This document shows, one piece after another, positions 38,046-64,000 of a stretch of DNA of 64,000 bases; positions within the stretch are counted from its first letter, which is position 1, and every line of letters begins with the position of its first letter. Below the pieces are notes generated by a model. That model saw only the letters and a program-made list of their open reading frames with translations. It had not been told where the DNA came from and searched no databases. A program made the position numbers and the translations under genes. Origin of the DNA: Methanosarcina barkeri MS (lineage in GTDB: Archaea > Halobacteriota > Methanosarcinia > Methanosarcinales > Methanosarcinaceae); assembly GCF_000970025.1 (NCBI RefSeq), contig NZ_CP009528.1, forward strand, positions 3,645,168 through 3,709,167, in the 5' to 3' direction.

Positions 38046-38516
38046 ATGAGTTTGGCAAAATCCCCATGGATTATACATGTTAACTGTAACAGTTGCAACG
38101 GTTGTGATATTGAAGTAGTGGCCTGTCTTACTCCCCTATATGATGCTGAAAGATTTGGCGTTATAAACATTGGTACTCCCAAGCAAGCTGATATAATGGT
38201 GGTTACAGGCTCAGTGAATTATAAGAATGTAAATGTGCTTAAAAACCTTTATAACCAGATTCCTGATCCAAAAGTAGTTTTAGCTGTAGGTGCCTGTGCA
38301 TCTACAGGTGGGATATTCCATGATTGCTACAATGTGGTAGGTGGCGTGGATCAGGTCATACCAGTAGATGCATATGTTCCTGGATGTTGCCCAAGACCTG
38401 AAGCCATACTTGACGGAGTAGTAGCAGCACTTTCAATACTTGAAAATAAGAAGAAAGGGAACATCAAAGGAAAAGAAGTAAAATTGAAAGGAAACGAGGT
38501 GCCATCAAATGCTTGA
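38046..38516 (+). CDS. echC: Ech hydrogenase small subunit C
   Basis: A 156-residue [NiFe]-hydrogenase small subunit, NuoB-like, carrying the proximal [4Fe-4S] cluster. Ligand motifs: NSCNGCDIEVVACL at residues 14-27, the GACASTGG loop near 80 and PGCCPRPEAIL near 118. The C-terminal tail is Lys-rich. It overlaps echD by eight bases. Confidence 0.96.
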   Translation: MSLAKSPWIIHVNCNSCNGCDIEVVACLTPLYDAERFGVINIGTPKQADIMVVTGSVNYKNVNVLKNLYNQIPDPKVVLAVGACASTGGIFHDCYNVVGGVDQVIPVDAYVPGCCPRPEAILDGVVAALSILENKKKGNIKGKEVKLKGNEVPSNA

Positions 38517-38862
38517 TAATGTGATTCAAAATATAACAGAAATAAAAAGCAGTGACGAACTGCTAAAAACTGTTGAAGGTTTAAAAAGCGATGGCTATCG
38601 ATATTCTACGATGATATGCCTGAAAGCTGACGAAGGCCATGAATTGATATATATCTTTGAGAAAGATAACAAATTAAAGAATCTAAGGTACTTTGTAAAA
38701 CCAGGTGAGAAACCCAAGAGCATGTCAGGCATTTATTTATGTGCTCTTTTGATCGAGAACGAGTACCAGGATCTTTTCGGATTGACTTTCGAAGGTTTAG
38801 CAATAGATTATAAGGGTCACCTTTACCTGACACCAAACAGTCCAAAAGCTCCCTTAGCCTAA
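38509..38862 (+). CDS. echD: Ech hydrogenase subunit D (NuoC-like)
   Basis: A 117-residue soluble subunit related to the 30-kDa NuoC/HycE N-terminal part. YLCALLIENEYQDLFGLTFEGL in the C-terminal half matches the NuoC signature (E-R-E-x-x-D-x-F-G-type). It has no cofactor and helps to hold EchC and EchE together. It is short compared with NuoC (about 180), which is normal for Ech. Confidence 0.93.
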   Translation: MLDNVIQNITEIKSSDELLKTVEGLKSDGYRYSTMICLKADEGHELIYIFEKDNKLKNLRYFVKPGEKPKSMSGIYLCALLIENEYQDLFGLTFEGLAIDYKGHLYLTPNSPKAPLA

Positions 38863-38884
38863 AGCAATTTGAGAGGAGAATCAC

Positions 38885-39961
38885 ATGACAACCATAATAC
38901 CATTTGGTCCTCAGCATCCCGTTTTACCTGAACCAGTGTCATTAAAACTTGAAATTGACAACGATGTTGTTGTTGGAGTACTTCCATCATTGGGCTACGT
39001 TCACAGAGGGCTTGAAACATTTATAAACACAAAGGACTTTAACCAAACCACTTATGTTTGTGAGAGGATATGCGGAATATGCAGTGCTCTCCATGGTATA
39101 ACTTATACACGGGCAGTCGAAAAATTATTTGACACTGAAATCCCTGAAAGAGCACAGTATATAAGAGTAATAGTTGGTGAACTGAATAGACTTCACAGTC
39201 ACCTCCTCTGGCTTGGCCTGTTTGCCGATGGTTTTGGGTTTGAAAGCCTCTTTTACGAATGCTGGAAGTACAGAGAAGAAGTACTGGATGTAGCGGAAAG
39301 AATCTGCGGAAACAGAGTCATACATTCAATATCCAAAGTCGGAGGAGTTACCAAAGATCTGACTAAAGAACATATTGATATGCTTTTGAAAATGTGTGAT
39401 TCGCTGGAACCTGAAATCAAAAATGTTGAAAAAGTTTTCGTAAACAATTACACAGTTAAGCAAAGACTTGTGGGATTAGCCACAATGTCAAAGCAAGTCG
39501 CATACGAAGCTGGAACAGCTGGCCCTACACTTAGAGGAAGTGGGAACGCTATCGACGTGCGGGAGACAGCAGACTGGGATATTTATAAGGATCTCGGTTT
39601 TAAAACGGCTGTTGAAAAGGATGGAGATTGTTACGCCAGAACTAAAGTAAGAATCACTGAGCTATTAAATTCTCTGACTATTATAAGAAATGCAATCTCC
39701 AAGATGCCTGATGGTGAGATTGAAACACGTATTAAAGGCTTCCCTACTGGAGAAGCGATTATGAGAACAGAGCAGCCCAGAGGTGAAGTTGTATACTATG
39801 TGAAAGGTAATGGTACCAAAAAACTGGAAAGACTTAAAGTAAGGACACCTACCTTTGCAAACATACCTTCACTGTTACTTATGTTACCGGGCGTCAAACT
39901 CGCTGATGTGCCTATAGTTGTACTTACTATAGATCCCTGCGTTAGCTGCACTGAAAGATGA
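38885..39961 (+). CDS. echE: Ech hydrogenase large subunit E
   Basis: A 358-residue catalytic subunit with the Ni-Fe site, NuoD-like. The N-terminal Ni ligands are in CERICGICSALHG near residue 60 and the C-terminal pair in IDPCVSCTER at the very end. The protein stops right after the C-terminal motif with no long cleavable tail, so maturation by an endopeptidase is apparently not needed, as reported for other Ech enzymes. GGTVTKD-like and GNRVIHS segments match the family. GAGAGGAG precedes the ATG. Confidence 0.96.
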   Translation: MTTIIPFGPQHPVLPEPVSLKLEIDNDVVVGVLPSLGYVHRGLETFINTKDFNQTTYVCERICGICSALHGITYTRAVEKLFDTEIPERAQYIRVIVGELNRLHSHLLWLGLFADGFGFESLFYECWKYREEVLDVAERICGNRVIHSISKVGGVTKDLTKEHIDMLLKMCDSLEPEIKNVEKVFVNNYTVKQRLVGLATMSKQVAYEAGTAGPTLRGSGNAIDVRETADWDIYKDLGFKTAVEKDGDCYARTKVRITELLNSLTIIRNAISKMPDGEIETRIKGFPTGEAIMRTEQPRGEVVYYVKGNGTKKLERLKVRTPTFANIPSLLLMLPGVKLADVPIVVLTIDPCVSCTER

Positions 39962-58305: not shown

Positions 58306-58818
58306 CTGAGTGACGATTTTCTGGAAAAACTGAAGAGCTTTGAGATTCCCACCTGCCTGCGGGTCTGCTGCGGAACCGACGGCTCAGTGACCTTCCTGCT
58401 GGAAATAATGACCCGAAAAACGGTAAGTGTAATAACTGAGTCTCAGTATACCGTTAAGGCTGACAAAACAATTGCTGCCCTTCTATGCGTGGAAGAGGGC
58501 AGTGAGGTAAACGAGAGGGTAGTCAGGCTCTCTGCAGGGAACACAACTTTTGTCCATGCAAGGTCTCTTTCTCCTCTGGAACGCATGCCTGAAACCATGA
58601 AGGAACAGCTCATGCGTGCGGACATCCCGATCGGCCGGATCCTGCGCAGTCATAACCTTGAGACCAGGCGCGACATGACCGAACTTGAAATCCTGGAAAG
58701 ACAAAACACCTTCGACGGCATACCTGTTCTTTCCCGTTCCTACAAGATAGTCCACAATAACCACGTCCTTATGTGGATTAACGAGCGCTTCCCTATCGAT
58801 GAGCGCTGGAGCTTATAA
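58306..58818 (+). CDS. Chorismate pyruvate-lyase-like protein (DUF98), apparent CTG start
   Basis: A PF01947-type protein, about 170 residues. Chorismate lyases of this group release pyruvate from chorismate to give 4-hydroxybenzoate. The core has VEEGSEVNERVVRL, FVHARSLSPLERMP, DIPIGRILR near residue 125 and FDGIPVLSRSYKIVHN. The frame opens after a stop at 58279; the only ATG or TTG downstream lie well inside the domain, and GTG 58387 would remove the N-terminal FLEKLKSFEIPTCLRVCCG. GGAGGT at 58294-58299 is correctly spaced for CTG 58306. Either CTG is the start or an ATG has mutated. Confidence 0.75.
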   Translation: MSDDFLEKLKSFEIPTCLRVCCGTDGSVTFLLEIMTRKTVSVITESQYTVKADKTIAALLCVEEGSEVNERVVRLSAGNTTFVHARSLSPLERMPETMKEQLMRADIPIGRILRSHNLETRRDMTELEILERQNTFDGIPVLSRSYKIVHNNHVLMWINERFPIDERWSL

Positions 58819-59014
58819 AGAAAATATCAGGAAAAGACGAACCAAATAACAAAATTGGAATATAATAGCTTTTTCGAAGCAATTTTTCGATTTATTTTAT
58901 GGCAAACTTGCAAATTTTGTAGCAGTCCGGGAGAAAATCCCACCTATTTCTGCTTTCAGTCGAAACCTTTATATCTCTGCTGTGATATTTTGGAGATGCT
59001 CTTTTAGCATCAGT

Positions 59015-59086
59015 GCCTTGGTGGCTTAGGGGTATAGCGCGTCCTTGGTAAGGACGAGGTCGCGGGTTCAAATCCCGCCCGAGGCT
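59015..59086 (+). tRNA. tRNA-Thr (GGT)
   Basis: A 72-nt cloverleaf: acceptor GCCTTGG with CCGAGGC (one G-U pair), discriminator T, anticodon arm CGTCC-TTGGTAA-GGACG with anticodon GGT, and T-loop GGTTCAAATCC. CCA is not encoded. A TATA box TTTATATC lies at 58968-58975. Confidence 0.95.
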
Positions 59087-59176
59087 TAAGTCTATCAGTA
59101 TAATGCCCTACTTTTTTAGGGTTTATTGGCTTATAAGGATATCCTTATCAAAAGTCAATTTCCCTCATTTCGTATT

Positions 59177-59485
59177 TTATAATCGATTTTTTACTCTCGA
59201 AGGGAACATATATTCAACTAATTCGGGTATTGCTTCTTTTGAGATCCCAAAGGAATCCATTAAGGTCTTTTCAGGGTTTTCAGGCAACTTGCCTGCAGAT
59301 AACAGTATCCTTTTAATGTACTCTGCGAAGTCCTCTAATGTTAAGGTTTCTGTGACCTTTATGTTTTTGACAATATATGTGAGAATTTCTTGCCTTTCTC
59401 TAAAATGCTATTTCTCTAATACATTAACTTCTACATTCAGATACAGAACTTGTCCAGAGTCAGGACTAACGGTTTTAATATACAT
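59177..59485 (-). CDS. 102-codon ORF with one in-frame amber codon
   Basis: The minus strand from ATG 59485 to TAA 59177 is open except for a TAG at 59408-59410 (codon 26). AAGGAGGCGAG stands right before the ATG. The first part reads MYIKTVSPDSGQVLYLNVEV; after the TAG the frame continues HFRERQEILTYIVKN, TLTLEDFAEYIKRILLSAG and PELVEYMFPSRVKNRL. Methanosarcina decodes UAG as pyrrolysine, so a 102-residue Pyl-containing protein is possible. Alternatives: a pseudogene, or two short peptides. Family unknown. Confidence 0.5.
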
Positions 59486-59515
59486 TTTTCTCGCCTCCTT
59501 CCCCGGGGCAAGGTA

Positions 59516-59966
59516 TTAAGGATCAGAACACCAAATAGTATATTGCTTGTATCTATGTCGAATGTCCTGGGTTGCTTGTTCAGAGACCGGAAGAATGTAA
59601 TAATCTCCTTTTCTGATAACTTGAGCAGGAGAAGATATAGTCCAATCTTTTTTATCTTCTTTCATCTCGTTTACAAGTTCGCGTTTGATGCCGCTACAAT
59701 TATCTTTGTCTACCATTATGTAATATCTTTCACCCATAGTATTAGTGTCATATTCCATTCTATAGTTCCGAGTCATGTCATAGTCTTGAAGAATGGCTTT
59801 TACTTCTGACTCAGAAATTCCATCTTAAATTGAATATACAGACCACCTACTTGGGAATTGGAATACTGAGTTTGTGAATTAACTGGAGCTTTTATAAATT
59901 GTCCAGCAATCATCACGAGAATAAAAAAATAATAAAAAAAATAATTTCTTTATTGATTTTGCTCAT
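59516..59966 (-). pseudogene. Broken UPF0228-family gene
   Basis: Starts with CAGGTGTTGAT-ATG-AGC at 59966, encodes MSKINKEIIFFIIFLFS, then suffers a frameshift, continues GGLYIQFK in a second frame and, after another frameshift, [37 protein letters not shown] and [17 protein letters not shown]-like sequence in the last frame. It ends early at 59516 compared with the intact relative at 61016. At least two frameshifts and a C-terminal loss mark it as a pseudogene. Confidence 0.75.
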
Positions 59967-59990
59967 ATCAACACCTGAAAAGTGAAGATG

Positions 59991-60066
59991 ATTCGATAAA
60001 CCCATAGTTTGCTGTCTGTATAAGATATAAACAATCACTGAAACCAGAAATTTATCGAACTTCTCT
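59991..60066 (-). promoter_or_regulatory. Diverged copy of the 3' inverted repeat of C39-like genes
   Basis: On the minus strand, AGAAGTTCGATAAATTTCTG at 60065 leftward and GGGTTTATCGAATC near 59991 form an inverted repeat that matches the element at 21958-22044. It follows the C39-like fragment directly, as the other copy follows the intact gene. Confidence 0.45.
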
Positions 60067-60074
60067 TAGAAATT

Positions 60075-60330
60075 TTAAGGCTTCACATATATACGTTTTC
60101 TTTCTTGAGCACCATTGACTTCCACCTTTCGGGAACCAGATCCAACAAGCTATGGATCATTAATATAGATGTGATATGATCCAATAACAGTATCACCGTA
60201 TCCATAACAAACTCGAAAATGATTTGGACTTGTAATCATAGTGAAAAACGGTCTGTAATTGTCGATCTCAGTTTTAGCGGTCGTAAAACTCATAGTAGTA
60301 CTATTTTGTGTGCCCCGCTGCCCTAATCCA
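60075..60330 (-). pseudogene. C-terminal fragment of a C39-like peptidase gene
   Basis: The minus strand encodes MSFTTAKTEIDNYRPFFTMI, SPNHFRVCYGYGDTV and YHIYINDP, then TAG (60150-60152), then LVGSGSRKVEVNGAQERK and RIYVKP to a TAA at 60075. It aligns with the end of the intact protein (EIENNRPFFSMIPGHFRLCRGY ... LNDPLPVGS ... RIYVR), with the amber codon at the Leu/Pro position after NDP. The catalytic Cys part is gone. A pseudogene is the simplest reading. Confidence 0.7.
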
Positions 60331-60754
60331 CCCTGTTGCTGAATAAGCTGCTTATGTTTTTGCCTTCTTATGACTTATATCTCCTTTCTCTGGGCTTTTC
60401 ATGGGTTGGTTGAGGGATAAAGGCCTTCTTGGGAGAGAGTCAGGTTCTGTAAGAAAGGGAAACTGCCGGGAAGATCGTCAAAGAAGTTGATGAAAAAATA
60501 ATTTTCAAAAAAATCATCTATCACATGAGTACATATGTTATGTTAAAACATGTGTATTTTGGAAGATTTAAGAGAGAAATAAAGCGGAAAGAGAGAAAAA
60601 TAGATGAAATTGCACAGGTTTTGTTACAAAACCTGTGTATATTAGAAACATAAATATTTTTAGAGAATGAAAAAAAATGGGGAAACAGAAAAACGAAATA
60701 GGAAGAAAATATCTAAAGATGGCATTTAACACATCCCTGCACTAATTAGCAGTC

Positions 60755-61015: not shown

Positions 61016-61552
61016 TTACCCCACAATATCATCCAGACCTACAATCAAAACTTTCTCATTTGTTTCGAGTTCATTTTTTATCCTGATTGCATACCTCTCC
61101 AGAATATAATTCTCTCCAACAACCCAGGGCGCTGATCCATCTCCAAACTGGATATAACACATAACAGCCTTTTTCAACTGAAGGTTATTTTTTTCCACCA
61201 TTGCGAGAACATTTTCATCTGGACCAAATTCTTCAGATAACATAATTATGTTATAATTTCCTTTTTTGATTTCAACTACAGAAGTCCAGTTTTCATCTTT
61301 CCTTAATTCATATATTTTATCTTCATCAACTTCTATGTAGTACATTCCTCGCCCAATATTAGAATTATAGTCTATGGTATAATTCACGGGTATGTCGTAA
61401 TTTTCAAGAATGGCTTTAACTTCCGCCTCACTAGTTTCATTTTCAAATTGAATAAATAAACCAGGTGTTTTAACTTCTTGAGATTGCATCATCAGTGCTA
61501 AGAAGGTTAGAAGAGCAATAAAAACAACAATTACTTTGCTAATTTTATTCAC
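61016..61552 (-). CDS. UPF0228 family protein (membrane-anchored)
   Basis: About 178 residues. One N-terminal membrane segment (KVIVVFIALLTFLALMM, residues about 7-23) is followed by two alpha/beta repeats: GLFIQFENETSEAEVKAILENY, IGRGMYYIEVDEDKIYELR, and later VMCYIQFGDGSAPWV and RYAIRIKNELETNEKVLIVG. UPF0228 proteins are typical of Methanosarcina and occur as families; function unknown. GTG 61552 aligns with the ATG of the broken paralogue and has GGTGAT upstream, so I prefer it to GTG 61561. It starts 27 bases after the end of the C39-like pseudogene. Confidence 0.82.
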   Translation of the reverse strand: MNKISKVIVVFIALLTFLALMMQSQEVKTPGLFIQFENETSEAEVKAILENYDIPVNYTIDYNSNIGRGMYYIEVDEDKIYELRKDENWTSVVEIKKGNYNIIMLSEEFGPDENVLAMVEKNNLQLKKAVMCYIQFGDGSAPWVVGENYILERYAIRIKNELETNEKVLIVGLDDIVG

Positions 61553-61570
61553 ATCAATCACCGAAAAAAT

Positions 61571-63478: not shown

Positions 63479-64000
63479 TCAGTCCAAAGCCTCACCTTTA
63501 TTCTTTTTTTCTGCGACCTTCTTCGCATACATTTTTTGCATAATTCCTACCGCCTCAGGGCTTCTCAAGAGTACTTCCATAAGCTCAGGTATCTTATTTT
63601 CCAGTTCCTCAAGTTCAAGAGCTACAGCTAAATCAAGAATACGTCCGCACCTTGAGCAAAATTTAGATGTAGGACTGTTGATCTTTTCACATATTGGGCA
63701 GGTCTTACTGGTAAGTTCCGGGATCATGTCTTCTTTTTTCGTCATGCCATAGATCCGGAGCATAGCATCATCTACCTGTTTCCCGGAAAGATGAACATAG
63801 ACACTGGGCATATCTGAACCATGAACCCATCCTAAATGAGCTTCCATTTGAGATTCAGTCAAATGTTGGGCAAGTTCTGTACTTCTGGAATGCCGGAAGA
63901 GATGATTATAGACTCTCTTTTTAATTCCAGCTTTTTCCGTAAGCATACCTATGAGCTTTCGAAAAGCAGAGTACTGCATAGGTTTGCCGTTACACTTTCC
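63479..64000 (-). CDS. Tyrosine recombinase/integrase, C-terminal part (cut by window end)
   Basis: The frame is open to the window edge, so the N-terminal part is missing. The catalytic domain shows YNHLFRHSRSTELA (H-x-x-R), HLGWVHGSDM and the nucleophile Tyr in MPSVYVHLSG. After it comes a zinc-ribbon tail CPICEKINSPTSKFCSRCG and a helical end rich in Lys/Glu. This layout is common in archaeal chromosomal integrases of the XerC/phage type. It may belong to an integrated element that extends beyond the window. A first in-frame Met inside the window is at 63979. Confidence 0.9.
   Translation of the reverse strand, partial: GKCNGKPMQYSAFRKLIGMLTEKAGIKKRVYNHLFRHSRSTELAQHLTESQMEAHLGWVHGSDMPSVYVHLSGKQVDDAMLRIYGMTKKEDMIPELTSKTCPICEKINSPTSKFCSRCGRILDLAVALELEELENKIPELMEVLLRSPEAVGIMQKMYAKKVAEKKNKGEALD

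Follow-up and report, generated by a model that had tools for sequence, protein, structure and literature searches.

The window analyzed here is a 64,000-nucleotide stretch of the Methanosarcina barkeri MS genome (G000:C2:3645168-3709167), which is available as a 4.57 Mb assembly of two contigs with a stated completeness of 99.88%. On its minus strand, the window contains an ORF of 102 codons, counting a single in-frame TAG at codon 26, that is located between a convergent tRNA-Thr gene and a UPF0228 pseudogene (Table 1). The frame opens with an ATG at 59485-59483, continues through 25 codons to the TAG and then through another 76 codons to a TAA at 59179-59177; no other stop is found within the 102 codons. 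The description in the first-pass annotation of a frame broken by TAG alone and ending in an ordinary TAA is thus borne out, but on the minus strand, which was omitted there; read in the frame given by its coordinates, the plus strand contains many stops over this interval. The start signals of the ORF, that is, the Shine-Dalgarno-like motif and the ATG, are good; such a motif was not seen ahead of the closest relative, in genome G006.

Table 1. Coordinates, in window numbering, of the interrupted ORF and the features around it
Feature	Coordinates	Strand	Comment
Interrupted ORF	59177..59485	-	Lacks the CxxC motif; short form of an unnamed protein family from Methanosarcinaceae
In-frame TAG, codon 26	59408..59410	-	Lys codon in the G006 relative
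Shine-Dalgarno-like AAGGAGGCGAG	59490..59500	-	4 bases ahead of the ATG
tRNA-Thr (GGT)	59015..59086	+	Convergent, on the 3' side of the ORF
UPF0228 (PF05727) pseudogene	59516..59966	-	Lies upstream; both truncated and frameshifted; matched by Pfam within 59516-59776
Integrase-like gene	63479..64000	-	Matches only profile positions 105-169 of PF00589, with a score under the curated cut-off; context

An antisense frame that is open on the plus strand over 59103-59519 (138 aa) is taken as a probable shadow of the minus-strand gene, because it is the minus-strand frame that relatives from other genera match, and because differences from the G006 copy concentrate at the third codon positions of that frame. 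The plus-strand ORF listed at the equivalent place in G006 is just 62 aa long (L044:5640-5828). Reinitiation 3' of the TAG is unsupported because no in-frame ORF of at least 40 aa was found to begin there.

The surroundings of the ORF

As the first-pass annotation had held of the neighbors, the gene upstream of the ORF is a pseudogene. Its start was read by eye against a complete UPF0228 copy in G003 and, by the same comparison, the remnant carries at least two frame changes in addition to the truncation. When 12 candidates were scored per genome, the DNA similarity of other UPF0228 copies was found to stop, in the seven best among the matches listed, at window positions 59565-59563 (query ends 836-838). 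Another UPF0228 gene, at 61016-61561, matches the Pfam profile over its full length. The integrase-like gene encodes 208 aa when bases past the window are included and shows C-terminal zinc-ribbon matches; a relative, 78% identical, is encoded near a gene of the same family as the ORF in G026 (L048:6201-6650).

The tRNA-Thr locus was viewed in ten other genomes, nine of which were anchored by the tRNA together with the left-flank genes and one, G021, by the tRNA alone. Past the tRNA, there are intact long family genes in G005 and G009 and a C-terminal remnant in G021, and no family gene was detected within about 5 kb of the tRNA in G001, G003, G004, G006, G008, G013 and G029; family genes seem to come and go at this site. 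The intact genes in G005 and G009 were considered as orthologs of the ORF and rejected: given their low identity to it and the much closer copy in G006, only the position is common to them and the ORF. Family members convergent with a tRNA and located just past its 3' end are present at seven places (the window, L044, L046, L047, L071, L088 and L097), the tRNAs concerned being tRNA-Thr (G000, the genome under study, G005, G009 and the remnant in G021), tRNA-Gln (G006 and L071) and tRNA-Leu (G060). At most of the other family loci, a tRNA was not seen in the stretch examined. The tRNA-adjacent placement may mark integration sites; however, a genome search with the 26-base 3' end of the tRNA-Thr gene, allowing up to two mismatches, retrieved the tRNA gene itself only, and in the absence of a second copy an integrated element is not demonstrated.

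The protein family and its closest copies

Relatives of the ORF were sought in three sets with one genome per species, namely, 30 genomes of the genus (its own included), 111 of the Methanosarcinaceae and 185 of the order. Matches were obtained in 14 of the 30 genus genomes (23 places; E-value 0.01 or better), in 21 of the 111 Methanosarcinaceae (30 places) and in 16 of the 185 genomes of the order (21 places; E-value 0.001). The ORF is not a chance open frame, as indicated by matching relatives of both of its halves: L002 and L015 in G006, L003 in G021 for the second half, along with the wider family. Beyond the two closest copies, the matches show 25-37% identity. At 19 of the 29 other places in the Methanosarcinaceae, there are open frames of 116-171 aa, and typical members start with MFIKxxCPVCG and end near CPDRKRLYF. 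The ORF is shorter than these typical members and contains no cysteines; an intact 106-aa gene in G085 (L091), which matches the ORF weakly (E-value 0.0046), also lacks the CxxC motif. In its own genome, the ORF is the sole convincing member of the family found (the next match of an intact relative has an E-value of 0.22) and, accordingly, is not obviously redundant.

Database comparisons gave no name for the family. For the ORF read through the TAG, Pfam and NCBIfam returned only matches far below the curated cut-offs and the best PHROGs match had an E-value of 0.12; for one intact relative, the only Pfam match was to DNA_ligase_ZBD, below the cut-off (E-value 0.0076). An NCBIfam dehydrogenase model that is touched by two of 24 aligned members (best E-value 0.0035) is taken as a chance match. 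PADLOC reported nothing for the ORF, for one intact relative or for the 437-aa protein encoded upstream of the G006 copy. A sequence search of the PDB yielded weak, incoherent matches (best E-value 0.048), and a Foldseek search of PDB and BFVD with the predicted model gave no match at an E-value of 0.001. No relative of the ORF was retrieved from phages and plasmids by tblastn at an E-value of 0.01, or by pattern scans of genome contigs and of viral contigs, which are insensitive to distant relatives.

The copies closest to the ORF are broken. The G006 copy, at 76% DNA identity, has lost one base at about codon 56, which puts its two halves in different frames, and also carries a compensating pair of indels at codons 34-39, the polarity of which is not assignable. 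The G021 copy matches codons 50-97 only, and its first half was not found in the surrounding 11 kb. Thus, three copies of this close kind were found in Methanosarcina, each with a different disabling change. There is an overlap of about 10 bases between the G006 copy and the end of the 437-aa gene (L044:5949-7262, minus strand), for which Pfam has no match either, and this overlap suggests translational coupling. The G021 copy (L045, G021:C10:56000-67000) is flanked by a tyrosine-integrase gene (PF00589) and by a DUF927 gene, in surroundings that look like a mobile element.

Codon 26, constraint on the frame and decoding of UAG

Codon 26 is spanned at 26 of the 29 other family places in the 111 Methanosarcinaceae genomes and is TAG at none of these, so the lesion is private to the ORF, as in a pseudogene, and an in-frame TAG kept at one position among relatives was not observed. 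In 28 of the 29 places, the matched stretch is free of stops. The remaining one, in G055 (L086, G055:C9:24923-25084), has a TAG at about codon 52 in the numbering of the ORF; read against the G054 copy, its frame shifts directly past the TAG, which identifies it as a plain pseudogene and indicates that members of this family do decay by amber. In the G006 copy, codon 26 is AAG, a single base away from the TAG of the ORF. Across 31 relatives, picked by hand with fragments, duplicates and stop-bearing copies excluded (e.g., L005, L018, L021, L023, L079, L086, L089 and L098), column 26 of the alignment holds Leu in 11, Ile in five, Lys in four, Thr and Val in two each, Glu, Met and Phe in one each, and a gap in four, three of which are fragments that do not extend to that column. 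The region is highly variable, with 13 of the 14 codons from 19 to 32 differing between the ORF and the G006 copy. The first-pass annotation proposed that readthrough would be supported by homologs that are intact on both sides of codon 26 and have TAG, Lys or a different residue there. Ordinary residues are indeed present there, including Lys in the closest relative, but TAG is found in none of the 26, and close relatives that combine an ordinary residue with an intact gene were not encountered, both closest copies being broken. In an AlphaFold2 model of the ORF with Lys at codon 26, built with 23 relatives (mean pLDDT 87.5), residue 26 lies within a long strand (13-29), near the turn (30-31) of a predicted beta hairpin. 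Judging from this model and from the variability of the stretch, such a site would tolerate pyrrolysine and equally would not need it.

Selection on the frame was assessed by comparison with the G006 copy; the TAG, gapped codons and codons 34-39 were removed from 96 aligned codons, and 88 were kept. For the 25 codons preceding the TAG, the dN/dS ratio is 0.39, and for the 63 codons following it, 0.25. In 5000 runs of a neutral simulation with a matched number of changes, the observed synonymous count was reached in 28 runs for the part after the TAG and in 906 for the part before it; the latter part is short, with little power, and its constraint is not distinguishable from neutral evolution. 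The low ratio and the 28 neutral runs indicate constraint on the frame 3' of the TAG that lasted until recently or persists today. The post-TAG frame has therefore been under selection for much of the divergence between the ORF and the G006 copy, although the TAG is undatable from this signal and the constraint may predate it. With the distant G021 fragment as the outgroup, changes in codons 58-96 were assigned to branches (6 sites ambiguous, 34 assigned to the outgroup side), giving six nonsynonymous and two synonymous changes on the branch of the ORF and three and four, respectively, on that of G006, with codon 76 in both. Small as these numbers are, and distant as the outgroup is, the counts on the branch of the ORF lean towards relaxation.

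The first-pass annotation regarded it as suggestive that the single lesion is exactly UAG. Of the 55 single-base changes that turn a codon of the ORF into a stop, 30 yield TAA, 13 TAG and 12 TGA, and TAG as the sole lesion is accordingly an unremarkable nonsense outcome. To judge from these counts, plain decay would be expected to produce TAG about one time in four, which leaves a lean towards readthrough of fourfold at most and no proof. The bare pattern is no rarity: a scan of the window for a permissive Shine-Dalgarno motif with an ATG, followed by 20 or more codons, a single internal stop and then 60 or more additional codons, returned 11 ORFs, in which the internal stop is TGA (5), TAA (4) or TAG (2); at least one of these consists of two adjacent genes sharing one frame. 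Another minus-strand ORF interrupted by TAG (38351-38917) was translated and, on the translation alone, put aside as a likely shadow ORF. The 36 long, non-overlapping ORFs of the window (at least 150 aa) end in TAA (21) or TGA (15) and never in TAG. Hence TAG hardly serves as a terminator here, in keeping with its avoidance in a genome that decodes it as pyrrolysine.

The presence of the decoding machinery conforms to the first-pass statement that Methanosarcina reads UAG as pyrrolysine. The genome encodes a pyrrolysyl-tRNA synthetase (pylS) that scores above the family cut-off, a tRNA-Pyl with the anticodon CTA near pylS, and two mtmB genes, each with one internal TAG, which served as controls. 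Given these three elements, some readthrough is expected if the ORF is transcribed; partial readthrough is likely under that premise, and whether it matters is a separate question. Pyrrolysine insertion has been proposed, in one review, to rest on competition between release factors and tRNA-Pyl (PMC8211752); in another, a reporter with an introduced amber in M. acetivorans is described as mostly terminated, with 20-30% of the product full-length and pyrrolysine-bearing (PMC2933860). At the gathering score, no PYLIS was detected in 58800-60400, and both mtmB loci, as the positive control, score as PYLIS_1; the latter review describes the element as not essential in mtmB (PMC2933860). RNA folding after the TAG is at the level of shuffled sequences (z 0.09).

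Interpretation and comparison with known systems

Taken together, these observations are best explained, with a probability of roughly two in three, by a recently broken gene in a decaying segment adjacent to tRNA-Thr, the amber being its lesion. This interpretation draws on the absence of TAG at codon 26 from all relatives, the broken state of the closest copies and of the UPF0228 gene, the TAG beside a frameshift in the G055 copy, the ordinary odds of a TAG lesion, the lack of a detectable PYLIS and of RNA folding beyond the level of shuffles, and, small as the numbers are, the branch counts. A small Methanosarcinaceae family member would have been hit at codon 26 by a nonsense mutation, the mutant triplet by coincidence being TAG, a codon that this host can also decode as pyrrolysine. 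Provided that the gene is still transcribed, translation would in most cases end with a 25-residue product, and a minor share of ribosomes would incorporate pyrrolysine and reach the TAA. Nothing in the data described above points to a need for the full-length protein. That the gene no longer functions, and that ribosomes divide in this way between stopping and reading through, is what we infer from this scenario. Several points speak against the broken-gene interpretation, namely, the presence of only one stop, the constraint after the TAG, the good Shine-Dalgarno motif and start codon, the readthrough described for the reporter (PMC2933860), and the status of the ORF as the sole copy found. 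As for the first-pass suggestion of a candidate pyrrolysine protein, what holds is that the sequence is genuinely coding on both sides of the TAG and that the machinery is present; the private TAG, the broken neighbor and closest copies, and the ordinariness of the lesion weigh against it, and the competing view mentioned there, plain decay, fits better.

As the main rival explanation, it is possible, although doubtful, that the gene still works and that the TAG is tolerated by virtue of its decoding by tRNA-Pyl with a useful efficiency, in the manner of Thg1, the M. acetivorans protein in which an amber-encoded pyrrolysine is, according to the review, dispensable for activity (PMC2933860). 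The frame that is intact on both sides of the TAG, constrained after it to a degree rarely reached by neutral runs (28 of 5000), the Lys at codon 26 in four of the 31 chosen relatives including the closest one, the variable stretch near the predicted hairpin turn, the pyrrolysine genes with the two TAG-bearing mtmB, and the near absence of TAG as a terminator (none of the 36 long ORFs) are all compatible with this possibility. The occurrence of the TAG in one genome only, the damage to the closest copies and the upstream neighbor, the excess of nonsynonymous over synonymous changes on the branch of the ORF (six against two), and the inseparability of the pre-TAG part from neutrality (906 of 5000) count against it. 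The specific picture of a working small protein from an undescribed archaeal family, the sole copy found, that is unconnected with methylamine metabolism, has newly acquired pyrrolysine at a tolerant hairpin position and is caught at a neutral stage appears unlikely.

A functional requirement for pyrrolysine at codon 26, of the sort proposed for the methylamine methyltransferases, is hardly credible: it is favored solely by the coincidence of a TAG with a pyrrolysine-decoding genome, whereas the column holds anything from Leu, Ile, Val, Met and Phe to Lys, Thr, Glu or a gap within a variable stretch, and a PYLIS was not found where the mtmB controls do score. A sequencing error or strain polymorphism, such that the deposited TAG is absent from the population and the gene is intact, would need only the single base that separates the TAG from the Lys codon of G006. 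This is improbable for an assembly of two contigs at such completeness and next to a neighbor that has decayed independently, although a single-base error would still be compatible with both of these facts.

Amber-interrupted ORFs in pyrrolysine-decoding archaea are raw material for potential new pyrrolysine proteins and, at the same time, a cause of false calls, whether of pseudogenes or of readthrough. The lesson of this locus is that constraint across a TAG is insufficient and that the nearest relatives must be intact as well. The UPF0228 remnant next door, an ordinary decaying gene, shares the neighborhood, the strand and a disabled frame with the ORF but has accumulated several lesions, compared with the single one in the ORF. 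The mtmB methylamine methyltransferase genes (PF05369) of the same genome likewise have one in-frame TAG; theirs, however, is conserved across species, as the review states (PMC2933860), and is accompanied by PYLIS_1, and the ORF has neither property. UAG-interrupted ORFs of the same general kind, with homology on both sides, are dealt with in surveys (PMC3639795 and PMC1914089). The ORF falls outside the criterion given in PMC1914089, namely, that at least two species share the same stop at an identical position, and that method, by its own account, cannot detect species-specific readthrough. The most similar features are those of Thg1, the tRNA-His guanylyltransferase of M. acetivorans, with its species-specific amber, an ordinary residue in relatives and a pyrrolysine-decoding host (PMC2933860). 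The difference is that pyrrolysine has been physically observed in Thg1, as the same review reports, whereas the ORF is known from sequence alone and its nearest relatives are broken. A full-length protein, if found, would place the ORF beside Thg1 as a further case of pyrrolysine outside the methylamine methyltransferases.
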